From contig JAJYXW010000177.1 in assembly GCA_021801525.1 (NCBI GenBank), positions 1-32,397 on the forward strand: DNA of 32,397 nt. The letters are read 5' to 3'. Positions 8,848-27,636 of this stretch are shown here, piece after piece (the first letter of the stretch is position 1; every line of letters begins with the position of its first letter). Made by a program: the position numbers and the translations under genes. The stretch comes from Actinomycetes bacterium (GTDB lineage Bacteria > Actinomycetota > Acidimicrobiia > Acidimicrobiales > JAJYXR01). The notes beneath the pieces were generated by a model, which saw nothing but the letters and a program-made list of their open reading frames with translations, was not told the DNA's origin and did no database searches.

Positions 8848-11201
8848 GCACCGAGGCATTGCTCCAGGGATTGGAGGTGCTCGACCTCGCGGGCGAGCCG
8901 GCCGCGCTCGCGGGGCGGATACTCGCTGACCTCGGCGCCAGGGTCGTGAAGGCGGAGCCGCCCGGGGGCGACCCACTCCGGCGAGTGCCGCCGCTCGGCC
9001 CCGACGGAACGTCCCTTCGCTTCGTCGCGTGGAGCGCCGGCAAGGAGCTGCTCGAACTAGAGGGGCCCGGCGATCCCGTGCTCGATGCCCTGCTTGCCCG
9101 ATCCGACGTCGTGATCGACACGCCGAGGTGGCCGGGCAGCGTCGTGATCGACCCCGCCCGGGCGCCGCACGCCGTATGGGTGTCAGTCACGCCCTTCGGA
9201 CTGGAGGGCCCACGCTCCGAATGGAGCGCCACGGACCTCGGGATAATGGCCTCGACGGGGAACATGTACTGCACCGGCGACCCTGACCGCCCGCCACTGC
9301 GCTGCGCCGAACCGGTCTCCTACGCTCACAGCGGCCCCGAGGCCGCGATGGCGGCGCTCAGCGCGCTTGCCTCGGGCAGGCCCCAGCGGGTCGACCTCTC
9401 CATGCAGGAATCGGTGATGATCGCCTCGATGGGTTGGCCCGGCCGCTACGCCAGGACCGCCAACCGGGGGCGGCGCCTAGGCGCCAATATCGGCGCGACA
9501 AGGGAGATATGGCCGTGCAAGGACGGCTTCGTGTCCTTCGGCCTGCGCGGTGGCAAGGCCCGCGTCGCCAACCTCGAGACCATCACCCGCCTCGTCGAAG
9601 AGGCGGGTCTCGCCACTCCGGCGCTGAGCGAGCGGGACTGGGCGAGCTTCGACCACACCTCGACGAGCCCCGAGGAGCTCGACGCGATCTCGCGCCCGGT
9701 GGCGGCGTTCTTCGCCACGCGAACGATGGCAGAGCTCTACGAGGCCGCATGCGCCACCAACTTGATGCTTGCCCCGATCAACTCGCCCGCCGAGCTGCTC
9801 GCCTCCAAGCAGCTAGCCGAGCGCGGCTTCTTCCGCCCGGCCGAGGGAGTGGAGAGGTTCCCCGCTTCGTTCCTCCAGGTGAAGCACCCAGACGGGCAAA
9901 TCGAACGCCCGGGGCCGGCCGGGAACGCCACCACCGAGCGCAGCGCCCGGAGCGGTCGTTACCAGCAGGAGCACTCTTCACCTGTCGCCGGGCACGGCAG
10001 CGGGGCATGGGAGGGCACCAGGCTCGTCGAGCTCGGCAGCGGAGCCGCCGGGCCCATCGCGCTGCGCTACTTCGCCGAGAACGGTGCGACGGTCGTCCGC
10101 ATAGAGTCCCGTGCACGCCCCGACTTCCTCCGCACCTACGGGCTGCGCCCCGGAAGCCCCTGCGGCCTCGACGGCTCCGACATGTTCGACTCGCTGAACG
10201 TGGGAAAGCTCGGCATCACGCTGAACCTCAAGTCGGCCGAAGGAAAGGAGATCGCCAGGCGGCTCGTCGCGTGGTCGGACGGCGTCGCGGAGAACTTCGC
10301 ACCCCGTGCACTGAGAGGGTTGGGCCTCGACTACGACTCCCTCCTCGAAGTGAAGCCGGACCTGGTGATGGTGAGCTCGTGCCTCCAGGGTCAGACCGGG
10401 CCACACCGTGACTACCCGGGCTTCGGAGGCCAGGGCTCTGCTCTCGCCGGCTACAACTACCTGACCGGATGGCCCGATCGCGAGCCCGTGGGCCCGTACG
10501 GCACCATCACCGACTCACTGGCCCCGCGCTTCGTCGCGACCGCGCTCGCGGCGGGCCTTCTCTACCGGAGGCGCACGGGGCTGGGACTGCACCTAGACGT
10601 GAGCCAGGTCGAGGCAGCCACTTACACGCTTGCGCCATGGGTGCTCGACTTCGAGGTGAACGGCCGGGCTGGCGGCAGGTGCGGCAACCGCTCGGAAAGG
10701 TTCGCCCCCCACGGCGCCTTCCCGTGCCAAGGAGACGACAGGTTCGTTGCGATAGCGTGCCACGACGACGAGGCCTGGGACCGGCTGGCAGGTCTCCTCG
10801 GCCCCGGTGCGCGCAACGCGTCTCTTCGCACCCTCGAAGGCCGGCTCTTGGAGGTCGAACGGGTCGAAGCGCTCGTCGGCGAGTGGACCATCACGCGCGA
10901 CGCAGCCGAGGTCGCAGCCGAGCTCCAGGCGCTTGGCATCGAGGCCGTCCCGGTGGCCGACTTCGCCGACGCATCGTTGGACCCCCAGCTAGCAGCCAGA
11001 GGCCACTTCGTGACCCTGGACCACCCCTGCATGGGGGCGTGCGGCTACGAGAGGAACGGGTTTCGCCTGTCGGACGCGAAGGCGGGCTACGACCGCCCGA
11101 GCCCGCTCCTCGGCGAGCACGAGGAGCTGGTTCTAGGTGAGATCCTCGGCATCGGGGAGGCTGAGCGCAAACGCCTCGCCGAAGCCGGCGTGCTCGCCTG
11201 A
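8811..11201 (+). CDS. Double-domain CaiB/BaiF (type III) CoA-transferase
   Basis: About 796 residues, twice the normal 400, made of two type III CoA-transferase domains in tandem (about 15-390 and 400-796). Each begins with the Rossmann-like segment (VLDLAGEPAALAGRILADLGARVVK; LVELGSGAAGPIALRYFAENGATVV, each quoted in part). In the type III family an aspartate (Asp169 in CaiB) forms the acyl anhydride. At the matching place the first half has His173 (SYAHSG) and the second half Asp568 (TITDSL), so only the second half appears catalytic. The two halves probably mimic the interlocked homodimer. It likely moves CoA between a donor acyl-CoA and a pathway acid. The start is uncertain: GTG 8811 overlaps the thiolase by 37 bases; TTG 8859 fits family alignment better. 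Its 3' end overlaps the convergent DUF2889-like gene by 69 bases. Confidence 0.85.
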   Translation: MRRPRPREGGVLSTEALLQGLEVLDLAGEPAALAGRILADLGARVVKAEPPGGDPLRRVPPLGPDGTSLRFVAWSAGKELLELEGPGDPVLDALLARSDVVIDTPRWPGSVVIDPARAPHAVWVSVTPFGLEGPRSEWSATDLGIMASTGNMYCTGDPDRPPLRCAEPVSYAHSGPEAAMAALSALASGRPQRVDLSMQESVMIASMGWPGRYARTANRGRRLGANIGATREIWPCKDGFVSFGLRGGKARVANLETITRLVEEAGLATPALSERDWASFDHTSTSPEELDAISRPVAAFFATRTMAELYEAACATNLMLAPINSPAELLASKQLAERGFFRPAEGVERFPASFLQVKHPDGQIERPGPAGNATTERSARSGRYQQEHSSPVAGHGSGAWEGTRLVELGSGAAGPIALRYFAENGATVVRIESRARPDFLRTYGLRPGSPCGLDGSDMFDSLNVGKLGITLNLKSAEGKEIARRLVAWSDGVAENFAPRALRGLGLDYDSLLEVKPDLVMVSSCLQGQTGPHRDYPGFGGQGSALAGYNYLTGWPDREPVGPYGTITDSLAPRFVATALAAGLLYRRRTGLGLHLDVSQVEAATYTLAPWVLDFEVNGRAGGRCGNRSERFAPHGAFPCQGDDRFVAIACHDDEAWDRLAGLLGPGARNASLRTLEGRLLEVERVEALVGEWTITRDAAEVAAELQALGIEAVPVADFADASLDPQLAARGHFVTLDHPCMGACGYERNGFRLSDAKAGYDRPSPLLGEHEELVLGEILGIGEAERKRLAEAGVLA

Positions 11202-12290
11202 GCGGCAAAGGGCGCGGGCCAGCTCGGAGATCGAGCCGAGCGAGCGAAGCAGGTCGTTCAGGTGCGTGCAGCATTCGACGCCACTAGAGCGCTCCAATGC
11301 CGCCGCGGGCAGGTCGGCGACCGCCACCCCGACCAGGCGCCCCACGAAGCCCGCTGCCGCGGGGCACTCCGGGAAGGGGAGGACTCTGGGCGCGGCTACG
11401 ATCCTTCGGACCACGAGAGCGTCGTGGTCGTGGTCGCGACCCGCGATCCTCTCGGCGTGCGGCGGTCCCACTTCGAGCTCCACCACGTACTCGTGCAATA
11501 CCGACTCCCCGCCCCCGGGCTCTCCGATGGTGTCCCGGAACATGGCCCAGACCGAGAACGACCCGTCCTCCCCCTGGCTCACGTCGACGAGGCGCCGGCG
11601 GCGCATGACGTCGGGAGCGAGAGGGCCGATCGCATGCCAACCGACCGGGTCACCGGCTGAGAGGTCGGTTGCCGGCGGGCAGTCCTGCACCGGTACTCCC
11701 AGCCCGGCCAGCACGGTCTCGAGCGCGTAGCCGCCCGGTCGCCAACCCGAGCACGTCCCCGAGAGCTTCTCTATCCTCTCGGGTGGGATGGTGACCGCCG
11801 GCTCGTGGCCGACCCGTTGCGCGAGTCGGATGAGCGAGTAGCCGGCGATCAGCGCCCCGGCTGGCAGGTCATCGAGGAGCTGGCGGGCGAGGGAGCGGTC
11901 GCCCTCCGGTGCCACTTCCTCGATGCGGCCTCGAAACCCGGCGGCGGCGCGGGTCCCGAGCAGCTTATCCGCCCAGGGCACCGGGGGATCCAGGCAGAGA
12001 TCGCCAAGTGCACGCTCGGGATCGAAGCCCGCAGACAGAGCCGTCTCTCCGAGCGCGGTCACGCCAGGCAGCAACCGCTCGCCCTCCAGAGCGCCACTCG
12101 ATCCGCCGGGGCCGGCTGTATCGGGCGTGACGGCATCGCGGGCCCAACCTTGCATCCAGAGCGCCCCGGGGCCGGCTGCCTCCCACGGGCCCACGTCGAG
12201 GTGCGTAGTCCGGCGTACGCTCCCGGGCTGGCGAGCGACGACCGAGCTGATCGGATCGCGAAGGCCGCGGGCACGCTCTGCGCGCATCAT
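11133..12290 (-). CDS. DUF2889-like protein
   Basis: 385 residues, function unknown. It shows the features I associate with DUF2889: an early RRTTHLDV segment, a short beta motif ALWMQGWARD, FPECPAAAGFVGRLVG, and CCTHLNDLLRSLG near residue 345. It is longer than usual because of an insertion rich in acidic and glycine residues (about 55-130). No signal peptide or membrane segment is visible. The ATG overlaps the aldehyde dehydrogenase stop by 4 bases, so the two are translationally coupled in an operon with an acyl-CoA ligase, which points to a role in the same acyl-CoA pathway. Its last 69 bases lie antisense to the end of the CoA-transferase gene. Gene reality is well supported; the family name is moderately sure. 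Confidence 0.72.
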   Translation of the reverse strand: MMRAERARGLRDPISSVVARQPGSVRRTTHLDVGPWEAAGPGALWMQGWARDAVTPDTAGPGGSSGALEGERLLPGVTALGETALSAGFDPERALGDLCLDPPVPWADKLLGTRAAAGFRGRIEEVAPEGDRSLARQLLDDLPAGALIAGYSLIRLAQRVGHEPAVTIPPERIEKLSGTCSGWRPGGYALETVLAGLGVPVQDCPPATDLSAGDPVGWHAIGPLAPDVMRRRRLVDVSQGEDGSFSVWAMFRDTIGEPGGGESVLHEYVVELEVGPPHAERIAGRDHDHDALVVRRIVAAPRVLPFPECPAAAGFVGRLVGVAVADLPAAALERSSGVECCTHLNDLLRSLGSISELARALCRSGEHAGFGEAFALSLPDAEDLT

Positions 12291-15419: not shown

Positions 15420-15485
15420 GGGGATCTGGTCAGCTACCCGGCCCTCGAGCGTGAGGTGGCCGGCGACCGGGGAGGAGGGATGGCC

Positions 15486-16766
15486 ATGCAGGCAGAGGAT
15501 CTCGTTCTCGTGAGCGTGGACGACCATGTAGTGGAGCCGCCCGACCTCTTCGAGGGCCGTGTTCCGGCTCGCTATCGCGACAGGGCGCCGAAGGTCGTTC
15601 GCAAGGAGGACGGCACCGACGTGTGGTCCTACGAGGGGTCGGAGATACCCAACATCGGGCTGAACGCGGTCGCCGGGCGATCTCCGGAAGAGTACGGGAT
15701 AGAGCCCACGTCGTTCGAGGAGATGCGAGCTGGCTGCTACGACATCCACGAGCGGGTGCGCGACATGAACGTGAACGGCGTGCTCGGCTCGATGTGCTTC
15801 CCCTCCTTCCCCCAGTTCTGCGGGCAGCTCTTCGCCCGCACCGAGGACAAGGAGCAGGCGCTGGCAATGCTCCAGGCGTACAACGACTGGCACGTCGAAG
15901 GCTGGTGCGGCGCGTACCCGGGCCGTTTCATACCCCTTGCCCTGCCCCCCCTCTGGGACCCCGAGCTGATGGGCGCCGAGGTACGTCGCATGGCTGCCAA
16001 AGGCTGCCACGCGGTGACCTTCTCGGAGAACCCCTCCAAGCTCGGCTACCCGAGCCTCCACTCCGAGCACTGGGACCCCTTCTGGAGCGCCTGCTCGGAC
16101 GAGGGGACCGTGGTGTGCCTCCACATCGGCTCCTCGTCACAGCTCGTCATCACCGCGCCGGACGCCCCCATCGACGTGCTCATAACCCTGCAGCCGATGA
16201 ACATCGTGCAGGCTGCCGCTGACCTCGTCTGGTCCCCGGTGCTGCGGAAGTACCCCGACCTGAAGATAGCCCTCTCCGAGGGGGGCATCGGCTGGATCCC
16301 GTACTTCCTGGAGCGGATCGACTACGTCTACCAGCACCACAAGGCCTGGACGGGCCAGAGCTTCGGCGACCAGCTCCCGAGCCAGGTATTCCTCGACCGG
16401 ATAGTCACCTGCTTCATCGACGACTCCTTCGGGGTGGAGAGCCGAGCGCACCTGAACCTCGACCAGGTCTGCTGGGAGTGCGACTACCCCCATTCGGACT
16501 CGACGTGGCCGAACGCTCCCGAGGCTGCAATGAAGTACTTGGCCGGGCTGCCGGACGCGGACGTGAACCGCATCACGCACGAGAACGCGATGAGGATCTT
16601 CTCCTACGACCCGTTCGCTTCGAGGGCCCGCGATCGGTGCACGGCCGGAGCCCTCAGGGCCGAAGCTGGTGATGTGGACGTGAGCATCGCTGCACGCAGG
16701 GCACCGGGTGAGCAGACCAAGCACACCCACGCCACAGACCTCGGCTCGCTCAGCTCCAAGCGCTGA
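15486..16766 (+). CDS. Amidohydrolase-2 family metal-dependent hydrolase/decarboxylase (second paralogue)
   Basis: 426 residues. SVDDHVVEPPDLF (10-22) holds the metal-binding D-x-H pattern; HIGSS gives the central histidine and WECDYPHSDSTWP the late aspartate. It aligns over its length with the protein at 4776-5927 but has a longer tail, about 35 residues after the last family motif, rich in Ala, Arg and Thr, with no recognised domain. The start is set by GGAGGAGG at 15471-15478: the ATG at 15480 would be too close, while 15486 has a 7-base spacer. It is monocistronic, transcribed away from the ligase operon, and converges on the ferredoxin gene with an 18-base gap. The reaction is unknown. 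Confidence 0.88.
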   Translation: MQAEDLVLVSVDDHVVEPPDLFEGRVPARYRDRAPKVVRKEDGTDVWSYEGSEIPNIGLNAVAGRSPEEYGIEPTSFEEMRAGCYDIHERVRDMNVNGVLGSMCFPSFPQFCGQLFARTEDKEQALAMLQAYNDWHVEGWCGAYPGRFIPLALPPLWDPELMGAEVRRMAAKGCHAVTFSENPSKLGYPSLHSEHWDPFWSACSDEGTVVCLHIGSSSQLVITAPDAPIDVLITLQPMNIVQAAADLVWSPVLRKYPDLKIALSEGGIGWIPYFLERIDYVYQHHKAWTGQSFGDQLPSQVFLDRIVTCFIDDSFGVESRAHLNLDQVCWECDYPHSDSTWPNAPEAAMKYLAGLPDADVNRITHENAMRIFSYDPFASRARDRCTAGALRAEAGDVDVSIAARRAPGEQTKHTHATDLGSLSSKR

Positions 16767-16998: not shown

Positions 16999-18198
16999 TC
17001 AACCCACGAACTCCGCGACGGGCGAGAACACGAGCGGCAGGCGTGACACCGACCGCAGGCCGGGCGTGTATTCGAGAACGGTTCCGGGCGCGAGCGAGTA
17101 CTCCGGTATGCGCTTGTGGAACTCGCGCAGCACCACGCGCAGCTCCACCCTCGCGAGATGCGACCCCAGGCAACGATGCACGCCGCCCCCGAAGGCAAGG
17201 TGCGGGTTGGGGTTACGCCTCAGGTCGACCACGTCCGCCCCCGGCATGGCTTCGTAGTCGGTGTTCGCCGACCCAAGCAGCAAGAACACGTTGTCCCCCG
17301 CGTGGACGGGGCAGCCACCCACCTCGGTGTCCTCGAGAGCCACGCGGGCGATACCCGGCACCGGGCTCTCCCAGCGCAGCAGCTCCTCCACCGACGAGGA
17401 TATGACGCCTGGGTCCTCCACTATCTGGCGGCGGTGCTCCGGGTGCTGGGCAAGGTGGGCGAAGAAGCAATCGAGCGAGTCTGTGACCGTGTCGAGGCCT
17501 GCGATCAGGAACAAGAAGCAGACGTCGAGCACCTCCTCCTTGGTGAGCTGCTCTCCGTCCACCTCGGAACCCATGATGCGGGTCAGAAGATCGTCGCCGG
17601 GCTTGGCGCGCCGCTCGTCAACCAAGTCGCCGAAGTAGGCGTAGATGGCGTCGGCGGTGCGCTTGCGCTCTGGCTCCTGCTCTTCCATAGTCGCCCCGGG
17701 AGGGCGGATGATCCCCTCCTTCAGCGACAAGAAGAGCTCCAGGTCACCCAAGGGCAGTCCCATCAGCCTGAGGAAGACCGTGCAGGGAAGCGGCACTGCC
17801 AGCTCCTCGTGGAAATCGCACTCGCCGCGACCCACGAACTTGCCCATCAGGTCATCCACCAGCTCGACGATCTCCCCCTCGAGAGCCGCCATCTGGCGTG
17901 GGGCGAACAGCGGGTCGAGAATGCGCCTGTACTTCACGTGCTTGGGCGGGTCTATCTGGAGAGGTATGAGCGGGCGCACGTTGCCCAGCTTCACCGCCTC
18001 CTCCCGCGAGGAGAACAGCGCCGGGTTGCGAAGCGCCGCTTCGATGTCGTGCCGCCGGGTAAGGGCGGCAAAGCCCGGTCCGATCTGCAGGACGGGCTGC
18101 TTGCGGAGCTCTTCGAACAGGGCCCTCGGATCATCCGACGAGGCCGGGTCGAAGCCGGCAAGGGAAGTTTGCTCTGTGCTCTCGTTCTCTCCGTACAT
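16999..18198 (-). CDS. Cytochrome P450 (bacterial class I monooxygenase)
   Basis: 399 residues, soluble bacterial length. Landmarks: I-helix AGLDTVTDS (233-241) with the acid-threonine pair replaced here by D238/T237-type order, ExxR in EELLR (Glu272, Arg275), and the haem loop FGGGVHRCLGSHLAR with Cys343 as haem ligand. DPPKHVKYRRIL near 83 is the usual C-helix region that contacts haem. It would hydroxylate a hydrophobic substrate using O2 and electrons from the ferredoxin gene just downstream. ATG at 18198 has a strong ribosome site AGGAGGGG. Control is probably by operator 4 about 90 bases upstream. The operon is P450-ferredoxin only. Family certain; substrate unknown, perhaps a terpenoid, steroid or alkyl compound judging by the neighbours. 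Confidence 0.96.
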   Translation of the reverse strand: MYGENESTEQTSLAGFDPASSDDPRALFEELRKQPVLQIGPGFAALTRRHDIEAALRNPALFSSREEAVKLGNVRPLIPLQIDPPKHVKYRRILDPLFAPRQMAALEGEIVELVDDLMGKFVGRGECDFHEELAVPLPCTVFLRLMGLPLGDLELFLSLKEGIIRPPGATMEEQEPERKRTADAIYAYFGDLVDERRAKPGDDLLTRIMGSEVDGEQLTKEEVLDVCFLFLIAGLDTVTDSLDCFFAHLAQHPEHRRQIVEDPGVISSSVEELLRWESPVPGIARVALEDTEVGGCPVHAGDNVFLLLGSANTDYEAMPGADVVDLRRNPNPHLAFGGGVHRCLGSHLARVELRVVLREFHKRIPEYSLAPGTVLEYTPGLRSVSRLPLVFSPVAEFVG

Positions 18199-18284
18199 CT
18201 CGGTCCCCCTCCTAGGTGGGCGAGCCGGCTGGCATAGGGCATCGCCCGGAGCATGCCTGAGGCGGTGCTGCTTTTCAGCGTATC

Positions 18285-18304
18285 AGTCTATGACGTCCTT
18301 GTCA
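18285..18304 (-). promoter_or_regulatory. TGAC-N6-GTCA operator 4 and P450 -10 box
   Basis: TGACGTCCTTGTCA at 18291-18304. On the minus strand the abutting TAGACT at 18285-18290 is a plausible -10 box, giving the same GTCA-TAGA(C/G)T junction as operator 2 has on its minus side. The operator would fill the -10/-35 spacer of the P450 promoter. The leader to the ATG at 18198 would be about 80 bases. Confidence 0.7.
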
Positions 18305-18317
18305 GCTTCGAACAGAC

Positions 18318-18329
18318 ACTGACGTCAGT
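18318..18329. promoter_or_regulatory. Palindrome ACTGACGTCAGT upstream of the P450 promoter
   Basis: A perfect 12-base palindrome, extended to 18 bases (18315-18332) with one mismatched pair. It joins the same TGAC and GTCA half-sites without the 6-base spacer and lies 13 bases beyond operator 4. It could be a second, differently spaced site for the same regulator or a site for another one. Confidence 0.5.
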
Positions 18330-18351
18330 ATCGGGAGCGCAGAGGCGCCCG

Positions 18352-18379
18352 CCTCGTTGCAAATCTCGTTGCAGCGAGG
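18352..18379 (-). terminator. Hairpin after the transporter operon
   Basis: CCTCGTTGCA and TGCAGCGAGG form a 10-base-pair stem (one G-U pair) with an 8-base loop, 33 bases past the stop of the last transporter-operon gene. No U-tract follows, which is common for GC-rich actinobacterial terminators. A second short stem (18342-18355) overlaps it, so the two would be mutually exclusive. Confidence 0.5.
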
Positions 18380-18411
18380 ACTGGCCCGGGTGCCGCTTCG
18401 CCATCAGGCCA

Positions 18412-19203
18412 TCAGGCATCAGGGTGGCAGATCCGGCAGGGCTGCATGCGGGCGCGCGCCGCCTCGTCCACCTCGTGCACTCCGCCGGTGAACGACGCCA
18501 CCACCGGGCAATCTCCGAGGTGGTAGGCGCTTCCCACCGCGGTCGCGTACAGTCGGCCCTTTGCGCCGCTCGCCGGGACACCCAATGCCTGGGGAGCCGG
18601 CACTAGAGACGGCACTAGAGACGGGGCTGGAGCCGGGGCTGGAGCCGGGGCTGGGGACGGCACTAGAGACGGCACTTCCGAGGGCTGCGCGATGCCTGGC
18701 ATGCCGGCGGGCAGGGAGCCGAGCCTGGACACTGCCTCGCTCAAGTCTCCGAGGACCTTCACGAGTGCCTGCTGGGTCACGGCTAGCTGCTCCTGGTGCA
18801 AGTCTGCCTGGTCGTAAATTCGGTAGAGCCACTGGGCCCAGAAGAGGAGCCCCCCTGTGACCATCAGCCCCAAGCCGATGAACGAGCCGCTCGCCATGAA
18901 GGGGATCTGCTGTTGCACGTAGGGAGTGTGAGCGGCTCCGTACCAGCCGAAGAGGATGATCACCACCCCGAGTGGGATTAGCACTGCGCCGACTCCGGCC
19001 TGCCAGGTCCTCTTCACGTCGAAACGGTCGCGCTTCGCCTCGACGGCACCGGGCTCGTTGCCGGTAGGCGCGACCGGGGGAATCCCGCCGCGCTCGGCTC
19101 CCTGCGCTCCTGTGGAGCCCGGGAGCGCACCGCCCACAGGCTCCTCGCTCGGCAAAGCGTCCGGCGCGGGACGATCACCTCTCAGCCTCTCCATCACCTG
19201 CAT
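18412..19203 (-). CDS. Two-pass membrane protein with C-terminal Ada-like zinc motif
   Basis: 263 residues, not recognised as a whole. Residues 1-65 are hydrophilic and Pro/Gly-rich. Two membrane helices follow at about 69-89 and 104-124. A probable amphipathic or coiled segment runs 131-162 (DLHQEQLAVTQQALVKVLGDL, quoted in part), then a Pro-Ser-Val-Ala linker (178-205) built from 12-base DNA repeats. The last 45 residues, YHLGDCP...PCRICHP with His228, Cys232, Cys256 and Cys259, match the short Ada-like metal-binding module (Y-H-x3-C then P-C-x2-C) often found at protein ends. ATG 19203 follows AAAGGAGG. It is the last gene of the importer operon, 28 bases after the surface-protein gene. 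A metal-sensing or scaffold role beside the importer is only a guess. Confidence 0.8.
   Translation of the reverse strand: MQVMERLRGDRPAPDALPSEEPVGGALPGSTGAQGAERGGIPPVAPTGNEPGAVEAKRDRFDVKRTWQAGVGAVLIPLGVVIILFGWYGAAHTPYVQQQIPFMASGSFIGLGLMVTGGLLFWAQWLYRIYDQADLHQEQLAVTQQALVKVLGDLSEAVSRLGSLPAGMPGIAQPSEVPSLVPSPAPAPAPAPAPSLVPSLVPAPQALGVPASGAKGRLYATAVGSAYHLGDCPVVASFTGGVHEVDEAARARMQPCRICHPDA
18599..18675 (-). repeat. 12-bp tandem repeats coding a Pro-Ser-Val-Ala linker
   Basis: Six 12-base units in the order A-A-B-B-B-A, A being GGCACTAGAGAC and B GGGGCTGGAGCC, plus a partial unit. In the minus-strand gene they encode PSLV and PAPA-like tetrapeptides forming a flexible linker between the helical part and the zinc motif. 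Length variation between strains is likely. Confidence 0.85.
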
Positions 19204-19231
19204 GAATGCCTCCTTTCCGACCTCGGGAACG

Positions 19232-20752
19232 TCACCTGCGGCGCCCGACGAGCAGTTGCCAGCGGCTGTAGAACAACAGTGGGCCCGAGAGAACGACCGA
19301 CGCGGCGATTCCGGCGACCACCCAGCCGAAGGGTACGGGGAAACCTAGCGGCGGCACCTTTGTGGACCCCGCGGGACTTGCCTCCAAGACGCTGGAGCCA
19401 CCCGAGGTGCCGCCCGTGCCGGGATTGCCGAGGGCCGCCGAGAGCGAGCTCCCCGGCCCGCTGGCCGGGAAGGTCTGCGACACGTTGCCGGTGCTGAAGG
19501 TGCTGCTCGGGTACTGCCCGCTTCCCGAGAGCGAGGACGGGAATGGACCACCCGTGGACAGGGGGCTCGAGCTCGAAAAGCTCGGGAGCGCCGTGGCGTT
19601 CACCGTCGAGGTGGCATACCCGAGGTCGATGGTCGTCACGGTCGGGATTGACGTGCCCGGTGAGAAGTTCCCGAGCCCCGGCAACGGGATGGGCGGCAGA
19701 CCGGTCGGCGGCAACGGGATCGAGCGCTCGATGGTGATCTCGAGGGCACCAGAAGTCGCCGTCACAGCACCGGTGCTCGCGTCGGTGCTCGTCTTGCCGG
19801 GCAGCTCGCGGATGGTGAGCTGGTCCTGCTGGAGCGTGTGGTCGAGCACCGAGGACACCTCGGCCGGCGACGGCACGCCTGCGGGCGTGGGGGACTGACC
19901 CACGACGTGGACGCCGTACTGGTCTATGTAGGCCTTCTGGCCATCCACCGTAACTGCGCCGATGTGTAGTGTGGCCACGGGTTTCGTGGTCGATCCGTCC
20001 GAGCTCACCCCGGCGGAGCTCTCGATGCCGGCGATATGGACCAGGCCGGCAATCGTGATGCTTCCCACACTCGACGTCGCCCCCGAGTCGACGCTCGAGG
20101 CGCCGTAGGTGACCTCGTTACCGGCGTCGAAGCTGCCCGCGCTGAAGAGCCCGGTCGACTGTGCAGGGAGGTCGAACCCGAGCTTTGCTGCAGTCGCCGT
20201 GACCGACGCCGCCGAGGCGCTCGCCGTCGCGCTCACCGAGCCGACCGAGGCAGCCGGACCGGTGCCGGAGGAAGCCGGCTGCCCGCCGGAGGGGAAGCTA
20301 GCGGAGGAACCGTGGTGGGCGGAGGCCGGGTAGTCGGCTTGGGCCACAACCGGGTAGTTCGGGATGTTGGACGGCGCCTGGCTGCTGAACTCGGGGATCT
20401 CCGAGCCGAGGTTAGCCGCGGGGTAACCAGGGTACAGAGGCGATCCAAGTGCCTCCACGGTCGGGCCCGACGAAGCGGTCGTGTCCGCGTACGGGACGTT
20501 CACCTCCATTAGCGGGTGCGTGATCGGAACGAGACCGGGGATGTTGAATGTGACTCGGACGGCCGCGGACCGCGCCTGCAGGGTGAAGCCCGCAAGCCCC
20601 CCGCCCGACCCGGTTCCACCGCTCGGAGCCGGTGAGGAAGAGGGGTACGCCGACGCCCATGCCGGCGCGCTCCCCAGTGCGACCACCAGCCCTCCGGCGA
20701 ACAGCGCTGCCAGGGGAGCTCTGAGCGTCCTGAAAACTCGATTCTCACCCAT
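19232..20752 (-). CDS. Secreted, C-terminally membrane-anchored Ser/Gly/Thr-rich surface protein
   Basis: 506 residues, not recognised. A signal peptide is clear: basic GENRVFRTLR, hydrophobic core to about 28, cleavage near AWA-SA (33/34). The body is rich in Ser, Gly, Thr and Pro with no cysteine, and contains beta-like segments such as VGSITIAGLVHIAGIESSAG and VTVDGQKAYIDQYGVHVVG. A single hydrophobic helix near 476-497 is followed by a basic tail RWQLLVGRRR, so the chain should sit outside the membrane anchored at its C-terminus. ATG 20752 is preferred over TTG 20761 because GGGAGG is 9 bases before it. It starts directly after livF, so it belongs to the importer operon, and may help capture substrate at the envelope (inference). 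Confidence 0.82.
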   Translation of the reverse strand: MGENRVFRTLRAPLAALFAGGLVVALGSAPAWASAYPSSSPAPSGGTGSGGGLAGFTLQARSAAVRVTFNIPGLVPITHPLMEVNVPYADTTASSGPTVEALGSPLYPGYPAANLGSEIPEFSSQAPSNIPNYPVVAQADYPASAHHGSSASFPSGGQPASSGTGPAASVGSVSATASASAASVTATAAKLGFDLPAQSTGLFSAGSFDAGNEVTYGASSVDSGATSSVGSITIAGLVHIAGIESSAGVSSDGSTTKPVATLHIGAVTVDGQKAYIDQYGVHVVGQSPTPAGVPSPAEVSSVLDHTLQQDQLTIRELPGKTSTDASTGAVTATSGALEITIERSIPLPPTGLPPIPLPGLGNFSPGTSIPTVTTIDLGYATSTVNATALPSFSSSSPLSTGGPFPSSLSGSGQYPSSTFSTGNVSQTFPASGPGSSLSAALGNPGTGGTSGGSSVLEASPAGSTKVPPLGFPVPFGWVVAGIAASVVLSGPLLFYSRWQLLVGRRR

Positions 20753-20757
20753 CGTTG

Positions 20758-21465
20758 TCAACCTCCCAAGTACGTAGCCAGCACACCACCGGAGCGGAGG
20801 TCGGCCGGCTCTCCCACGGACACCACGCGACCCTTGTCGAGGAGATAGGCATAGTCAGCCAAGCCCAAGGCTGCCTCGACGTACTGCTCGACCACGAGCG
20901 CTGTGACGCCGGTTTCCGTCATCTTCCTTACGGCGTCGAACAGCGCTGTCACAATGATCGGCGCGAGCCCCATCGAGATCTCGTCCAGCATCACCAGCTT
21001 CGGGCGCGCTAGCAGCCCGCGCGCGAGGGCCAGCATCTGCTGCTCCCCGCCCGAAAGCGAGCGGGCATGCTGCGAAAGTCTGTCCCCGAGACGCGGGAAC
21101 AGCTCTACCCCCCTCGCGACGACTTCGTCCACGTCGGAGCCCTGCGGCATGGAGTATGCGGCCATCCGCAGGTTCTCCTCCACGGTCAGGCTCGGGAAGA
21201 TGCCTCGTCCTTCGGGGACGTGAACCATGCCGAGACGGGCAATACGGTGAGGTGGCCAGCCGGTCACGTCCCTCCCCGCGAAGATGATCCTGCCACGCTC
21301 GATGTCAGCGAGGCCCGATGCTGCCCGGAGCAGGGTGGTCTTGCCGGCGCCGTTGGGCCCGAGAAGAGCCACCACGCAACCGGCCGGCACGCTCATGCTC
21401 ACACCCGACAGGGCACGCACACCACCGTAGGACACACTCAGGTCGCTGATCTCGAGCACGTTCAT
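20758..21465 (-). CDS. livF: ABC transporter ATP-binding protein, LivF type
   Basis: 235 residues. Walker A GPNGAGKTT, Q-loop region ending in MVHVPEGRGIFPSLTV (the PEGR variant typical of LivF), signature LSGGEQQMLALARGL, Walker B LVMLDEISMGLAP and the H-loop replaced by Gln in VVEQYV, which is normal for LivF. It is one of two ATPases powering the branched-chain-amino-acid-type importer; such systems in soil actinobacteria often carry aromatic or other organic acids. The frame is open upstream inside livG, but ATG 21465 overlaps the livG stop by 4 bases (ATGA) and begins the family N-terminus (MNVLEISDLSVSYGG). The symbol marks the family only. Confidence 0.94.
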   Translation of the reverse strand: MNVLEISDLSVSYGGVRALSGVSMSVPAGCVVALLGPNGAGKTTLLRAASGLADIERGRIIFAGRDVTGWPPHRIARLGMVHVPEGRGIFPSLTVEENLRMAAYSMPQGSDVDEVVARGVELFPRLGDRLSQHARSLSGGEQQMLALARGLLARPKLVMLDEISMGLAPIIVTALFDAVRKMTETGVTALVVEQYVEAALGLADYAYLLDKGRVVSVGEPADLRSGGVLATYLGG

Positions 21466-22256
21466 GGTGCGATCGCTCCCTCGGGCTCGATCGCTGATCC
21501 CTCGGGCTCGATCTCGGCACCCAGGTAAGCCTCGATGACGCGCGGGTCGTTGCGGATCTGCTCGGGCGGGCCATGGGCGATCCTCTGGCCGAAGTCGAGC
21601 ACGGTGATCTCGGCACACACCTCCATCACCAGCGACATGTCGTGCTCCACGAGGAGCACCGCCGGCTCGCCGTCGCGTGCACCGGCAACTTGTCCGAGCA
21701 CCTGAGCGAACCACGACGTCTCGACGTCGTCGAGGCCGGAAGAAGGCTCGTCGAGGAGCAGCACGCGCGGGGCGGTGACGATCGCGCGCGCCAGCTCCAC
21801 CAGTCGTGCCTGGCCAGTCGGCAAGGTGCCGGCGAGCCTCGTCGCCAGAGCACCGAGGTCGAGGCTCTCGATCACCTCCGCCACTCGCGCACGTCCCTCG
21901 GACTTGTGCCGCCCGAGGACCGCCCCGGGGGTCACTCCCTCCCACGCCGCGAGGAGGTTGTCGTACACGGTCAGCCGGTCGAATAGCTCGAGGCGCTGGA
22001 AGGTCCGGGCAATGCCTGCCCGGCCACGCCGGTGCGTGGGCCAGCGAGTCACGTCTGTGCCGCCGAGCAGCACGCGCCCCCCGTTCGGCTCTATCACGCC
22101 CGAGAGCACGTTGAACAACGTGGTCTTGCCTGCCCCGTTGGGCCCGATAAGCCCGACGATCTGGCCGCTCGGCACCTCGAGGTCCACCGAGTCGAGGGCT
22201 ACCACGCCGCCGAAGCGCACCGTCACGTCTTCAGCCTGCAATAACCCCTCAGGCAT
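21462..22256 (-). CDS. livG: ABC transporter ATP-binding protein, LivG type
   Basis: 264 residues. Walker A GPNGAGKTT, GIARTFQRLELF (Q-loop with the FQ typical of LivG), signature region LPTGQARLVELARAI, Walker B VLLLDEPSSGLD and H-loop VEHDMSLVM. The signature begins LPTGQ instead of LSxGQ; the serine that contacts ATP across the dimer is a threonine one place later, so activity is probably kept but unusual. The C-terminus repeats IEPEG twice, from a 21-base DNA duplication. ATG 22256 has GGAGG 8 bases upstream and is preferred over an upstream TTG. The start overlaps the end of the permease gene by 8 bases. Confidence 0.93.
   Translation of the reverse strand: MPEGLLQAEDVTVRFGGVVALDSVDLEVPSGQIVGLIGPNGAGKTTLFNVLSGVIEPNGGRVLLGGTDVTRWPTHRRGRAGIARTFQRLELFDRLTVYDNLLAAWEGVTPGAVLGRHKSEGRARVAEVIESLDLGALATRLAGTLPTGQARLVELARAIVTAPRVLLLDEPSSGLDDVETSWFAQVLGQVAGARDGEPAVLLVEHDMSLVMEVCAEITVLDFGQRIAHGPPEQIRNDPRVIEAYLGAEIEPEGSAIEPEGAIAP
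21478..21513 (-). repeat. 21-bp-period direct repeat at the 3' end of livG
   Basis: CCCTCGGGCTCGATC occurs at 21478-21492 and again at 21499-21513. In livG it encodes the duplicated acidic tail IEPEG-x2-IEPEG. It is probably a local duplication without effect on the ATPase core. Confidence 0.8.
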
Positions 22257-24453
22257 CCCCGCCACCGCCTCCGCCCCTGGTCGTTGCAACAAGCTCCTCT
22301 ACCGGCGAGCCGTCACCCGCCACGGAGCCCGCTACGCCACCCGCTACGCCGCCAAGGGGGCTCTCGCCCCCCCTGCCTGAAAGCGCCGCTGCGGGGTACA
22401 CCGCCGCGCCATCTCGGCCGTCCGATCCAGCGCTGTTCGCGCCTTGGTGCTGCTGCGCACCGTGCTGTAGCTGCGCGCCGTTCGCACCGCGCTGTAGCTG
22501 CGCGCCGTTCGCACCGCGCTCTAGCTGCGCGCCGTTCGCACCGCGCGCGTCCAAGGCCAAGGCAGCGGGCATCGGCGAGCCGGGCAGGCGCCGGAAGTTG
22601 TCCAGAGCCGCCCAGAACTGCTTGACCGTGAGGGCGACCGAGCCCTCGGGCACGGCGGCCACACTCACCACGCCTAGCGCGATGGTTATGGGGATGAACT
22701 TCTCGATCTCCGTCGGAATCGGCAGGAGCTGCGTCGTGTAGGTGAACCCTGCCAGCAACGCCCCGGCCACTAGCGACCTGCCGCCAAGCACCACCAAGAG
22801 CAGGAGCTCGAGGGACTGGGCGAAGGTGTAGTTGCTCGGGCTCACCGTCAGGTGCCACGCGCCGTCGAATGCGCCGGCGAAGGCGGCGGCAGCGCCTGCA
22901 AGGGCGAAGACGACGAGCTTGGTGGTGGTGAGGTTTACCCCGAATGTCGAAGCCGCGAGCGGGGAATCGCGCATCATCTTCAGCCGCCGGCCTACCGCGC
23001 TCCGCTGCACGGCGAGTGCTGCCACGCCGAACAGGACCAAGAGGACGACGCAGAGCTCGTAGAACGAGGTGGTGGAGGCGAAAGAGATCCCGAAGATCCG
23101 CGGTCGCGGCACCGACATGCCCGTGTAGCCACCGCTCACGTCGGTCCGCGGGAAGACCAGGTTGTCCATCAGCAGGGCAAATGCCATGGTGGCGAGAGCC
23201 AGGTACAGGCCCGAGAGCCTGAGAGACGGGAGGCCGACGAGGAGGCCGACGGGCACTGCTATCGCCGCCGCCAGTAGGGCCGCCCACAGGAAGTTCGAGC
23301 CGTGCGCGCCGGCGAAGTGCCCGGCCATGAAGGCTCCTATCCCGACAAAGCTGAACTGCGCGAGCGAAATCTGGCCGGCCCACCCGACCAGGACGACGAG
23401 CGTGAGCGCAATCGCGGCGTAGATGAGGCCTGCGGTCACGTCGCCGAGATCGGGTCCCCTGAGCAAGACGGGGAGGGCGAAGAGGCCGAGCGCCACGAGG
23501 CCGCCGCTCGTGAGGAGCTTCTGGCGCGACATGAGCAGCGGTGACATGACGCTCGCACCGATGACGGGCTTCACGCCCGAGCGGACCTCGGTAAGTCGCT
23601 TGCCGTAGACGACGAGGAGCACGAAGAGCGCAAGGTACGGGAACGCAGCTTCGATATCGGCCACCGTCCCCGAGGCGCCCCACCGCTGCAGCACGCTCTG
23701 CAGCACCCCCAGGCCCATCCCTCCTGCATAGGCAAGGGGGAGGCTGACCAGGCGGCCGAGCACCGCCGGGGCGAACGCGTAGATGACCACCGTCACGAGC
23801 ACGTAGACCTGGAGGCCCTGGCTCGGAGAGAGCAGTATCCCGACCAGGCCTGCGAACACCGAGGAGATCACCCACGACGTACGCCCTACCGCCGTCGCGT
23901 TCACTCCGAGGAGCCCGGCGAGGTCGCGGTTGTCGATGACGGCACGTGAGGCCATCCCGAAGCGTGTGTGGCGAAGCAGCACGTAGAGCCCGAGGGCCAA
24001 AATGGCCGTTAGGAGGAAGGTCGCGAGCTGCGCCCACGACACCCTCAGTATCGAGCCCACCCCGAAGGTCGATATGGGGAAGATGCTCTGGATCGCCCGC
24101 GTGCGACCCCCGAAGGCGAGGGGCACGCCCGCCTCGAAGAACGCGAGGATGCCGAGGGAGACGACGATCTGGACCTCTGTGGAGACCCCCACCAGAGGCC
24201 GGTACAGGCGGTCGGAGACGAAGCCGACCACGGGAGCCACGACGAGCAGCACGAGGAGGAGGGAGATCCATTCGGGGAGATGCCAGCCGTCGCGGAACTG
24301 CCAGTAGGTGAACGCGCAGAACATGGCCACCGCGCCGTACGCGAAGTTGAAGACGCCCGATGTCCGGTAGGTGAGCACTATGCCCATCGAGGCGAGCGCG
24401 TAGACGCTCCCTGAGAAGAGCCCGATCACGAAGAACGGCCAGAGGGAGCTCAC
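22249..24453 (-). CDS. Fused LivH-LivM permease with hydrophilic repeat tail
   Basis: 734 residues. The first half (1 to about 290) is a LivH permease: GLFSGSVYALASMGIVLTYR, FNFAYGAVAM, and RAVIDNRDLAGLLGVN as the ATPase-contact loop. The second half (about 310-640) is a LivM permease: GWAGQISLAQFSFVGIGAFM, LYLALATMAFALLMDN, and MRDSPLAASTFGVN as its coupling loop. LivH and LivM are normally separate; here one chain gives the whole transmembrane channel. The last 95 residues are hydrophilic and Gly/Ala/Gln-rich with three RGANGAQLQ-type repeats and a glycine run, predicted cytoplasmic. GTG 24453 follows GAGGAG. Located between livK and livG in the operon. Transport role secure; substrate unknown. 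Confidence 0.93.
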   Translation of the reverse strand: MSSLWPFFVIGLFSGSVYALASMGIVLTYRTSGVFNFAYGAVAMFCAFTYWQFRDGWHLPEWISLLLVLLVVAPVVGFVSDRLYRPLVGVSTEVQIVVSLGILAFFEAGVPLAFGGRTRAIQSIFPISTFGVGSILRVSWAQLATFLLTAILALGLYVLLRHTRFGMASRAVIDNRDLAGLLGVNATAVGRTSWVISSVFAGLVGILLSPSQGLQVYVLVTVVIYAFAPAVLGRLVSLPLAYAGGMGLGVLQSVLQRWGASGTVADIEAAFPYLALFVLLVVYGKRLTEVRSGVKPVIGASVMSPLLMSRQKLLTSGGLVALGLFALPVLLRGPDLGDVTAGLIYAAIALTLVVLVGWAGQISLAQFSFVGIGAFMAGHFAGAHGSNFLWAALLAAAIAVPVGLLVGLPSLRLSGLYLALATMAFALLMDNLVFPRTDVSGGYTGMSVPRPRIFGISFASTTSFYELCVVLLVLFGVAALAVQRSAVGRRLKMMRDSPLAASTFGVNLTTTKLVVFALAGAAAAFAGAFDGAWHLTVSPSNYTFAQSLELLLLVVLGGRSLVAGALLAGFTYTTQLLPIPTEIEKFIPITIALGVVSVAAVPEGSVALTVKQFWAALDNFRRLPGSPMPAALALDARGANGAQLERGANGAQLQRGANGAQLQHGAQQHQGANSAGSDGRDGAAVYPAAALSGRGGESPLGGVAGGVAGSVAGDGSPVEELVATTRGGGGGGDA
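22464..22544 (-). repeat. 27-bp tandem repeat (3 copies) in the permease tail
   Basis: Three copies of a 27-base unit at 22464-22490, 22491-22517 and 22518-22544, differing by a single base in the third. In frame they encode the nonapeptide repeat RGANGAQLQ (third form ends LE). The near-identity shows recent expansion. Confidence 0.9.
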
Positions 24454-24530
24454 GTGGTCTCCTCGGGTGCCGCGGGCTGCCCTTTGCCCCCGAACCCCTC
24501 CCCGCAGATGCAGTCCACCTCAGGTGCCTT

Positions 24531-26144
24531 TCACTCGCCGTAGTTGCTTGCGGGACCGACCGGGAGCATGGCCCCGCCGCAATAGAGGCCATGGGCGGGC
24601 CAGTCGCGAACGAACTGGTTCCCCTGCACCTTCATCTCGACATAACAGCTGGGAGTGAGCCCGAACCACGGGGGGGAGGTCCCGGGCGGGTTCGGAGGAC
24701 GCTCCGAAGGCGTGCCCGGGCTGATCGCGCCCCATGCTGTCCAATTATGGATGGAGTCGAACACGTTGACGATGCTCTGGCGCGTGGGGGCATGGCCGGA
24801 CTTCACGAGCGCGTAGAAGAGCATCTCCGCGTTCACGAAGTCCTGGAAGCCGAACTCGCTCGGCTGCTTGCCCGGCTCGTAGCGGGCGAGCTCGGAGATA
24901 TAAAGCCGCACGAGTGGGTTGGAGCTGTTCAGCGGAAGGGCCGGAAGGGAAGTCTGGAACCCCTGGGCCGCCGACTGCCCTGCTTCTGTTATCTGGGCTG
25001 GGGTGTAAGTGTCGAACGTGCTGGCGAAGAACGGCGGGTACCAGTTCTGCTGCTGCATCGCCTGGAGCATCTTCGAATTCCCCACCACGTCCATCGTCGT
25101 GTATACGCCGTTGCAGTGGTTCGACTCCATCTGGATCACGTCCCCCTGCAGGGATGCAGTGGCCACCGAGATCGAGTAGTCGGTGTAGCAGATCGACGCG
25201 CCGCTCTCCTTGTAGAGGGTGGCGTACATCTGAGCGGCGGAGGCCGAGATGCTGATGTTGTACGACAGGAAGGCCATGCGCGTCGGGAACTGCCCGAACT
25301 GCTTCTGCGCAGCCATGATCGTGTTGGGGGCGTATGCGATACCGTTCCTCACGTAGAGGCCGCTCCCCCCGCCGGCAGACCAGTAATCGGGCGAGAGAGA
25401 CCTGTTCGTGTTGATGGCGAACCCGATGTCGGGGACGTTGGCCTGCTGCATCTCCTGTACCCCGCCGTTGTCGGCGTCCGACAGCGAGCCGGCGAAGGCG
25501 AACACCGGGTGTGCTATCAGGTTCGCCACGTCGGCTGCGTTGGTCGAGGCATCCTGGTTGTCGTTCTCGACCAGGAGCTCGAGCTTGCGCCCGCAGATCC
25601 CTCCGGCGGCGTTCACGCCATCGAAAGCGGCCTGCACCGCCTCGTAGCCCGCGCCGAAGGTGCCCGTGAGGGCACCCGTCAGGCCGCTCACGTTCCCGAA
25701 GACGATGCTAGAGGGGGTGACCCCGGGGGCCGATGCGGTGTTGCCGTTCGCGTTGGGGCAGTAGGCCGCCTGGGTTGCGGGGTCATAGCTGAAGTTGGCG
25801 AGGCTGAGAGCGCTGGGCGGAGGCGTGGAACCGGTGGTGCGAACGTTGCCACCGGAGGTGGGGGCGGTGCTGACTCCCGGGGAGTTGGACCCTGCCGAGC
25901 TCGAGGCAGCACCCTGGCCGGGGTTCACGACCGCGTTGGAGACGGAAGTACCATTCGCGCCATTGGCGCCGGAGCTCCCCGAGCTGACGGGGCGGACCGT
26001 TCCCGCAGCAAGGTTCCCCTGGCCGATGCCCGCGCCCGCGCCCAGGTAGGGCGCCACGCGGGCGCCACAAGCGCTGAGGGCAACGCCACCGAGGGAGACT
26101 GCCAAAGCAACTGCCGTGACCCTCGCCAGCCGTGAACAGCTCAT
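24531..26144 (-). CDS. Substrate-binding lipoprotein, LivK / periplasmic-binding type 6
   Basis: 537 residues. Lipoprotein signal: hydrophobic stretch 9-23 then lipobox LSAC with Cys26. A Gly/Ser/Asn/Thr-rich linker of about 100 residues follows, much longer than usual, which would let the binding domain reach out from the membrane. The binding domain begins near NGNTASAPGVTPSSIVFGNVSG, quoted in part, and contains GYEAVQAAFDGVNAAGGICG, the usual type 1 periplasmic fold opening, and GDVIQMESNHCNGVYTTMD. The frame is open upstream to 26525, but ATG 26144 has AGGAGGGG before it and starts the signal peptide. First gene of the importer operon, 77 bases before the permease start; operator 5 is about 105 bases upstream. 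Confidence 0.93.
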   Translation of the reverse strand: MSCSRLARVTAVALAVSLGGVALSACGARVAPYLGAGAGIGQGNLAAGTVRPVSSGSSGANGANGTSVSNAVVNPGQGAASSSAGSNSPGVSTAPTSGGNVRTTGSTPPPSALSLANFSYDPATQAAYCPNANGNTASAPGVTPSSIVFGNVSGLTGALTGTFGAGYEAVQAAFDGVNAAGGICGRKLELLVENDNQDASTNAADVANLIAHPVFAFAGSLSDADNGGVQEMQQANVPDIGFAINTNRSLSPDYWSAGGGSGLYVRNGIAYAPNTIMAAQKQFGQFPTRMAFLSYNISISASAAQMYATLYKESGASICYTDYSISVATASLQGDVIQMESNHCNGVYTTMDVVGNSKMLQAMQQQNWYPPFFASTFDTYTPAQITEAGQSAAQGFQTSLPALPLNSSNPLVRLYISELARYEPGKQPSEFGFQDFVNAEMLFYALVKSGHAPTRQSIVNVFDSIHNWTAWGAISPGTPSERPPNPPGTSPPWFGLTPSCYVEMKVQGNQFVRDWPAHGLYCGGAMLPVGPASNYGE

Positions 26145-26248
26145 ATTCCCCTCCTGCGAAGCATCGCCCGAGACATCCCCGGTGAGACCCGATGCATCCC
26201 CTATGACAGAGGAACGGGCGACCAGGTAGAACCTTTCGACTTCGAGGC

Positions 26249-26262
26249 TGACATATGCGTCA
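26249..26262. promoter_or_regulatory. TGAC-N6-GTCA operator 5 (importer operon / esterase)
   Basis: TGACATATGCGTCA, with C and G flanks making a 16-base palindrome CTGAC-N6-GTCAG. It lies in the 286-base gap between the divergent importer operon (ATG 26144) and the esterase (ATG 26431), nearer to the importer. I see no convincing -10/-35 pair for livK next to it. A further half-site with the same GTCATAG junction as operators 2 and 4 lies on the minus strand at 26202-26208. The rest of this gap holds no gene; only the 19-base repeat described separately. Confidence 0.68.
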
Positions 26263-26383
26263 GCTCCCCTGGCGAGAACGCAGCGGCGGCCGGCTACTTG
26301 CGGTCGGGCTCCTCGGAATCGGGCTCTCCGCTCCGCTTCGAGGCGTCGCCGAGCAGCCAGTCCGCCGGCCCTATACGTATTTG

Positions 26384-26423
26384 GTGCCCTCCACGCCTTA
26401 GAGTGCCCTCCACGCCTTAGAGT
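26384..26423 (+). repeat. 19-bp tandem duplication carrying two TAGAGT -10 boxes before the esterase
   Basis: GTGCCCTCCACGCCTTAGA occurs twice head to tail (26384-26402, 26403-26421). The junction creates TAGAGT at 26399-26404 and again at 26418-26423. The second is 7 bases before the ATG at 26431, which would give a leaderless mRNA; the first would give a leader of about 20 bases. No clear -35 box is visible for either, so promoter function is a proposal. Confidence 0.65.
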
Positions 26424-26430
26424 GGTGGCC

Positions 26431-27636
26431 ATGCCACCAGCGATCCACGAGCCCAGGCCCGGCGGCAGCGTCCGGGGCGAGGTAGATCCTCGCTTCGAGC
26501 CGCTGCGCGCGGCGTTCAACCGCAACTTCAGCGAACTAGGTGATGTGGGCGCAGCCGTTTGCGTCTACTACCAGGGCCGCAAGGTCGTAGACCTCTGGGG
26601 GGGCTGGGCCGACCCCAAGGCAGGCCAGCCCTACGAGGAGGACACCCTCCAGCTCGTCTTCTCCTCGACCAAGGGGATGACCGCGCTGTGCGCCCACATC
26701 CTCGCCGAGGAGGGAAAGCTCGACCTCGATAGCCCGGTTGCCTACTACTGGCCCGAGTTCGCGCGGGCAGGCAAAGGTGACATCCCCGTGCGCTGGCTGC
26801 TCTCCCACCAGGCCGGACTTCCTACCGTCGACGCCGAGCTCTCGCTCGACGAGGCACTGGCCTGGGAACCGGTCGTCCAGGCCCTCGCGGCTCAGCGCCC
26901 CTACTGGGAGCCTGGCAGCGCTCACGGGTACCACGCGCTCACCTTCGGATGGCTGGTCGGAGAGGTTGTGAGACGCGTAGCAGGCCAGAGCATCGGCGCG
27001 TTCTTCGCCGAGCGGGTAGCCGATCCTCTCGGGCTGCAAACCTGGATCGGGCTCCCCGAAGAGCACGAGCCGCGCGTGGCCCCGCTCCGTAGCGCGCCGA
27101 TGCCCAGTCCGGACGACCTCGATCCGAAGACGCTCGAGACCTTCAGCGCCTTCCTGTCCGGCGACGGGCTCGCGCTTCGAGCGCTCAGCCTGAACGGGAC
27201 CTTCGGGTGGCTCTCCCGGCGCGGGGGGCCTTTCAATAGCCGGGAGCTGCACGCCGCCGAGGTGCCTGCGGCAAACGGCATCACCGACGCGCGCTCTCTC
27301 GCTCGGATGTACGCGGCGATGATCGGCGAGGTGGACGGCGTGCGCCTGATCGGACCGGCTCGAGTCGACTTGGCACGCACTCCTGCTGCCGACGGACCCG
27401 ACCGAGTGCTGCTCGTGCCCAGCCGCTTCGGGCTTGGGTTCATGTGCCACTCCGAGTTCTCGCCGCTCTTGGCCCCGGGCTCTTTCGGACACTCGGGAGC
27501 AGGCGGATCGCTTGGCTTCGCCGACCCCGAGAGCGCGGTGGCCTTCGCTTACGTCATGAACGAGATGCGCCTCGGTCTCGCTGGCGACGAGCGCACCGTC
27601 GCGCTGCTCGACGGCCTCCGGTCCTCCCTCACCTGA
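26431..27636 (+). CDS. Beta-lactamase-fold serine esterase (EstB / class C-like hydrolase)
   Basis: 401 residues, no signal peptide, so cytoplasmic. The S-x-x-K nucleophile motif is FSSTKG with Ser78 and Lys81; the tyrosine motif is GYHALTFGWL with Tyr167; FGHSGAGGS late in the chain takes the place of the K-T-G motif. WLLSHQAGLP and YWEPGSAHGYHALTFG are typical of the EstB/LipL family of esterases, which cleave short-chain or bulky esters rather than beta-lactams. It could release an alcohol or acid that feeds the pathway, or act separately. It is divergent from the importer operon and converges with the CtaG-like gene after 58 bases. ATG 26431 has no good ribosome site, in keeping with a leaderless start. 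Confidence 0.9.
   Translation: MPPAIHEPRPGGSVRGEVDPRFEPLRAAFNRNFSELGDVGAAVCVYYQGRKVVDLWGGWADPKAGQPYEEDTLQLVFSSTKGMTALCAHILAEEGKLDLDSPVAYYWPEFARAGKGDIPVRWLLSHQAGLPTVDAELSLDEALAWEPVVQALAAQRPYWEPGSAHGYHALTFGWLVGEVVRRVAGQSIGAFFAERVADPLGLQTWIGLPEEHEPRVAPLRSAPMPSPDDLDPKTLETFSAFLSGDGLALRALSLNGTFGWLSRRGGPFNSRELHAAEVPAANGITDARSLARMYAAMIGEVDGVRLIGPARVDLARTPAADGPDRVLLVPSRFGLGFMCHSEFSPLLAPGSFGHSGAGGSLGFADPESAVAFAYVMNEMRLGLAGDERTVALLDGLRSSLT

Follow-up and report, generated by a model that had tools for sequence, protein, structure and literature searches.

A stalked surface protein and ORF263, a putative conserved pair of accessory membrane proteins of LIV-type importers in Actinomycetota

The usual description of a LIV importer lists five canonical parts. 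In many Actinomycetota, these importers are accompanied by two further membrane proteins, a stalked surface protein here called SURF and a protein here called ORF263, which, judged from sequence, appear to be a real and conserved accessory pair of the importer. The window, i.e. the whole stretch of 32,397 nucleotides from a soil actinobacterium analysed here, contains an operon that shares with LIV-type importers (branched-chain amino acid, HAAT family) the ATPases LivF and LivG, a BPD_transp_2 permease and a Peripla_BP_6 binding protein, but differs from them in the fusion of LivH and LivM, in the binding-lipoprotein tether of about 120 residues between lipobox Cys and folded domain, and in the additional SURF and ORF263 genes (Table 1). 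According to our preferred reading, to which we assign a probability of about one half, SURF serves a six-part LIV importer as a dedicated accessory subunit on the exoplasmic side, where it concentrates the ligand or presents it to the binding protein. Its part in substrate capture and its contact with the binding protein, as well as the substrate and the role of ORF263, are assignments that we infer. The pair is apparently new to the literature; open-licence papers yielded nothing on choice-of-anchor P proteins and nothing on accessory subunits of LIV importers.

An earlier note on this DNA had proposed a 506-residue surface protein at this place within the importer operon, without naming a strand. 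The gene is confirmed on the minus strand, beginning with an ATG at 20752 and ending with a TGA at 19234-19232, and a plus-strand gene in the same interval was ruled out by six stops. It was said to follow livF without a gap; it does lie directly downstream, but 5 nt separate the end of livF (20758) from the SURF start. The GC content by codon position is 61/63/84%, with a high third position that matches the neighbouring genes, and because homologues keep the frame as well, SURF is a real gene. A chance ORF or a wrong strand is excluded by the kept frame, the ribosome-binding site and the linkage described below. ORF263 follows the SURF stop after 28 nt and is preceded by its own ribosome-binding site, AAAGGAGG at 19216-19209. 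A simple scan of 18200-27000 found no terminator-like sites.

Table 1. Features of the importer operon and its surroundings in the window.
Feature	Positions	Strand	Basis or remark
SURF, predicted 506-aa stalked surface protein	19232..20752	minus	ORF, conserved linkage, AlphaFold2
SURF signal sequence, about residues 1-35	20648..20752	minus	hydropathy; sequence AWASA
SURF beta-rich exoplasmic domain, residues 53-388	19589..20596	minus	AlphaFold2, most blocks pLDDT 70-98
SURF disordered Ser/Gly/Pro stalk, residues 389-474	19331..19588	minus	pLDDT mostly <50
SURF membrane helix and basic tail, residues 475-506	19235..19330	minus	AlphaFold2, hydropathy
SURF ribosome-binding site GGGAGG, within last codons of livF	20767-20762	minus	precedes ATG
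livF ATPase	20758..21465	minus	ABC_tran; start chosen at MNVLEISD
livG ATPase	21462..22292	minus	ABC_tran, BCA_ABC_TP_C
Fused LivH-LivM permease (LivHM)	22249..24453	minus	BPD_transp_2, two stretches
Substrate-binding lipoprotein	24531..26144	minus	Peripla_BP_6; start chosen at MSCSRL
Disordered tether of binding protein, lipobox Cys26 to about residue 146	25707..26069	minus	
ORF263: membrane hairpin, long cytoplasmic helix, C-terminal H-x3-C...C-x2-C knuckle	18412..19203	minus	model, alignment
Cytochrome P450 beside importer (context)	16999..18198	minus	
Amidohydrolase-related protein, closest solved structure DitZ (context)	15456..16766	plus	

Hydropathy, composition and an AlphaFold2 model built from an alignment of 49 relatives bear out the signal peptide, the Ser/Gly/Thr-rich beta-like body and the C-terminal anchor with basic tail that had been claimed for the protein. 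The model reached a mean pLDDT of 76, with values mostly between 70 and 98 per 10-residue block in the strand-rich part and a few less confident blocks near residues 104-166; it places the stalk, about 85 residues long and modelled as disordered from about residue 407 to 472, before a terminal helix at residues 475-505. An N-terminal hydrophobic and a C-terminal membrane segment were found in all 50 full-length family members, the window protein included, the segments being called by crude hydropathy rather than by SignalP or TMHMM. The body contains 16.5% S, 13.3% G, 12.1% A, 10.5% P and 10.0% T and is free of Cys and Trp. Across the family, a Cys is present in 37 of 50 tails, and the tail end (V/L)P(N/D)LR is common to several Actinomycetes members (L150, L161, L172, L178, L190 and others); the window protein differs there.

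The protein had also been called unrecognised. This holds for the window SURF itself, for which Pfam and NCBIfam gave no match (NCBIfam up to E 1), but not for its family, since 23 of 50 members match the choice-of-anchor P family choice_anch_P (NCBIfam NF040603; best E 3e-11). The curated 27-bit cut-off was reached by 7 of 10 chosen members (6 above, 1 equal), and the paralogue in the window's genome scored 41.4 bits. The model NF040603 aligns to the central part of SURF relatives, and its proteins are likewise secreted and anchored at the C-terminus; the LIV-linked branch differs by an N-terminal part, the stalk and the fixed partner ORF263. In the same order, choice_anch_P proteins also occur away from LIV genes (L219-L221, L227, L230, L231), which represent other uses of the SURF-like surface domain.

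The structural side of the distant-homology check gave a confident beta domain but no convincing solved relative, the best hit of a profile search of solved structures having an E value of 0.027. Fold comparison with Foldseek and VIA returned only outer-membrane barrels and the like with low scores (TM-scores of at most 0.25 among the 50 Foldseek matches listed; best VIA Z 7.4). We do not take these low-scoring matches to barrels such as porins or FadL as evidence for a barrel, and SURF also bears a membrane helix. No match in either comparison implied ligand binding. In Mla/Mce lipid transporters, an ABC transporter is joined by an additional partner protein and by an additional exoplasmic subunit that a single helix anchors. 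The SURF set can be compared to them only in the way it may work. SURF and its 49 relatives gave no MCE-domain match (Pfam, E 0.1), and the ATPases and permease in the window are of the LIV type.

Evidence for the pair comes from its linkage to the transporter. Loss of this linkage in relatives had been named beforehand as what would refute a place of SURF in the importer operon; SURF and the LIV genes remain linked. A second SURF lies behind a second livF in the window's genome, and a SURF match was found in 9 of the 59 genomes searched as relatives (own genome counted). Neighbourhoods read whole showed the order binding protein-LivHM-LivG-LivF-SURF-ORF263 in close relatives and variants elsewhere, among which L124, L126, L127, L129, L159 and L173 keep SURF and ORF263 in the operon. 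An independent test, in which ORF263 was the sole query of the genome collection, yielded 55 actinobacterial loci, and SURF, detected with a profile that was iterated over all loci and then held (120 ORFs in the first, 125 in the last), adjoins ORF263 at every one of them. Within 9 kb, LivHM was present at 50, LivG at 48, LivF at 48 and the binding protein at 46 of these 55 loci, a count that leaves out the window and L013; at least one of LivHM, LivG and LivF was found at 51, and at the remaining four the contig ends within SURF. The distance from the SURF stop to the ORF263 start has a median of 3.5 nt, being at most 100 nt in 42 of 48 cases and an overlap or abutment in 22.

Generally, ORF263 is more widespread than SURF, with 46 versus 11 of 296 genomes in a sample of the class and 51 versus 18 of 396 in a sample of the phylum, for which deeper alignments were used and the weakest matches may be untrue. 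ORF263 genes without a detected SURF also belong to LIV operons, as 35 of the 37 ORF263 loci among L232-L271 lie near LIV genes; these are the best-scoring loci, and three of the 37 perhaps have a SURF (L236, weakly, L246 and L251). Many actinobacteria carry the ORF263 family in their LIV operons, among them some with genomes of 9-10 Mb (L240, L241). Conversely, many LIV operons lack SURF; it accompanies about 2 of the 8 in the window's genome, an estimate read from LivG matches of at least 41% identity. SURF and ORF263 accompany LIV importers also in the cultured genera Nocardioides, Lentzea, Catelliglobosispora, Allorhizocola and Micromonospora, which opens the function of both proteins to gene-removal tests. 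Two contigs of the window's genome, G000:C155 (L013) and G000:C193 (L251), end in the same ORF263 gene and overlap by 335 bp with 98.8% identity; they represent one operon divided by the assembly. The operon at locus L146, from a record assigned to Acidobacteriota (REEB240), closely resembles those of Acidimicrobiia; it stems from a mislabelled or contaminated bin or from a recent transfer.

SURF was also inherited together with the transporter. The distance matrices of SURF and LivHM correlate with a Spearman coefficient of 0.72 (50 loci, permutation p 0.001), LivHM and LivG somewhat more strongly with 0.85. For 31 of 32 paralogues, the nearest SURF is found in another genome, and only for one in the same genome. 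Hence, SURF follows the transporter type rather than the genome, and the matched distances indicate that the whole set, not the single gene, is inherited. Together with the conserved linkage and the order variants that keep SURF with ORF263, this co-inheritance supports the earlier placement of SURF in the importer operon and its assignment as a putative LIV importer subunit.

ORF263 was overlooked in the earlier note, which had seen one accessory gene. In its model, a membrane hairpin, the second helix of which is long, leads to a small domain at the C-terminus that contains H-x3-C and C-x2-C, i.e. two membrane helices and an H-C-C-C knuckle that the positive-inside rule assigns to the cytoplasm. 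Neither a fold search with the model (no match with E of 0.001 or below) nor a profile search of solved structures (best E 0.49) gave a convincing relative. The spacing of the metal ligands resembles the Ada metal-binding domain (PF02805). In ORF263, however, the first ligand is His, the scores are weak (at E 0.1, 5 of 54 members match, the best of them with 0.0064, the window ORF263 not being among the matches listed), and several members lack the motif, e.g. L161, L175 and L190. Inspection by eye suggested no link between loss of the knuckle and the Cys in the SURF tail.

The binding lipoprotein had been credited with an extra-long linker. It measures about 120 residues, and such long tethers are found throughout this transporter family and not in the window alone. 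Among loci with a fused permease, tethers measure 70-128 residues with SURF (median 98, n=47) and 25-114 without it (median 61, n=24, L251 included). The upper value of the latter is that of L251 (114), a contig cut whose SURF lies on the other contig, C155; once it is removed, the range is 25-75 (n=23). The Mann-Whitney comparison of both groups ignores relatedness and counts L251 as lacking SURF. On the permease tree, the presence of SURF changes about three times, and well-supported branches require two of these changes. Both independent pairs fit the tether difference, but two pairs cannot yield a significant result. At loci with a split permease, the medians are 105 with and 95 without SURF (10 each), with no clear difference, which argues against a simple rule connecting SURF and tether.

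The tether also correlates with the SURF stalk (Spearman 0.76, 51 loci), and independent contrasts for 48 loci likewise give 0.76, 42 of 46 having the same sign. It does not correlate with the SURF length minus the stalk (-0.05). However, tethers and stalks taken from mismatched loci of one genome are equally correlated (0.78 vs 0.75), and of 17 informative pairs within genomes, 8 differ in the same direction for both lengths and 9 in opposite directions, so that a locus-specific matching of tether and stalk is unsupported. Because mismatched loci correlate equally, both lengths follow a property of the organism rather than of the locus. This may be the thickness of the wall, which is attractive but unproven, or a genome-wide habit. 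The cytoplasmic spacer of ORF263 shows a weaker correlation, with a raw coefficient of 0.30 that is not significant and contrasts of 0.42 and 0.50 with tether and stalk (n=33). The envelope-spanning capture device proposed earlier is partly supported by the anatomy, the long disordered tethers and the lengths correlated across organisms; the equal correlation of mismatched loci speaks against a special pairing of the two tethers, and the capture part is a hypothesis.

In our preferred reading, the importer would consist of the tethered binding lipoprotein, the fused LivHM, LivG, LivF, SURF and ORF263. SURF would be secreted and anchored by its single C-terminal helix, with the beta domain held on the disordered stalk, and the similar reach of the binding-protein tether would bring both folded domains within reach of each other above the permease, inside the cell wall. 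There, SURF would most likely offer the binding protein a ligand that, according to the neighbouring genes, is probably a hydrophobic acid or terpenoid-like compound, while ORF263, which has a hairpin in the membrane and a metal-knuckle tail in the cytoplasm, may link SURF to the permease or signal to the ATPases. A farther-reaching version, to which we give less than even odds, is a monoderm relay, in which binding protein and stalked SURF on tethers matched to the thickness of the envelope catch poorly soluble compounds at the outer wall and pass them to the permease, SURF and ORF263 being ancestral and SURF lost at least two times together with tether shortening. If SURF works in the wall, it would bear on the uptake of water-shy nutrients across the thick wall of single-membrane bacteria and on what very long lipoprotein tethers are for.

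Linkage and co-inheritance would also fit structural or gating subunits, with SURF docking the binding protein or stabilising the permease from outside without binding a ligand. The occurrence of ORF263 in SURF-free LIV operons agrees with this, since ORF263 would then be a general LIV partner and SURF an add-on, and SURF is weakly conserved (3 invariant columns across 50 sequences), unlike a specific ligand pocket. Nevertheless, a stalk of 85 residues is needless for a mere stabiliser, and weak conservation is equally expected if paralogues differ in their substrates; we regard such a role as rather unlikely. It is considerably less probable that SURF is a general choice-of-anchor P surface protein that is merely co-expressed with the uptake operon and has another job, e.g. 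adhesion to a solid substrate. The matches of almost half of the family to choice_anch_P and the proteins of this kind away from LIV genes speak for it, but the LIV-linked branch keeps ORF263 and the transporter despite changes in gene order and across paralogues of the same genome. Finally, SURF might sense the ligand-loaded binding protein and the ORF263 knuckle signal inside, tuning transport or expression. ORF263 crosses the membrane and ends in a modelled knuckle on the cytoplasmic side, and most SURF tails contain a Cys; however, the knuckle is missing from several ORF263 proteins and no regulator was seen to recur, which makes a sensor the least probable of these options.

The guess on the substrate within our preferred reading comes from the neighbouring genes. 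PtmU3 and the dit genes are known from diterpenoid pathways. The importer is surrounded by a catabolic cluster with acyl-CoA dehydrogenase, CoA ligases, hydratase, thiolase, CoA transferase, P450 and two amidohydrolase-related proteins, of which the one at 15456-16766 is closest to DitZ (E 5e-105) and the one at 4776-5927 to PtmU3 (E 5e-40). Because of this cluster and the likeness to DitZ and PtmU3, a terpenoid-like hydrophobic acid is a reasonable guess but not more than that, and the poorly soluble substrate assumed in the earlier note is suggested solely by the same gene context, namely the DitZ/PtmU3-like amidohydrolase and the adjacent P450. Both amidohydrolase-related proteins sit in the CoA-ester catabolic cluster together with P450 and ferredoxin, and they are possibly dinuclear oxygenases of terpenoid breakdown; PtmU3 has been described as an amidohydrolase-related dinuclear oxygenase (PMC10811679). 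The catabolic cluster also includes a DUF2889 protein at 11133-12290.
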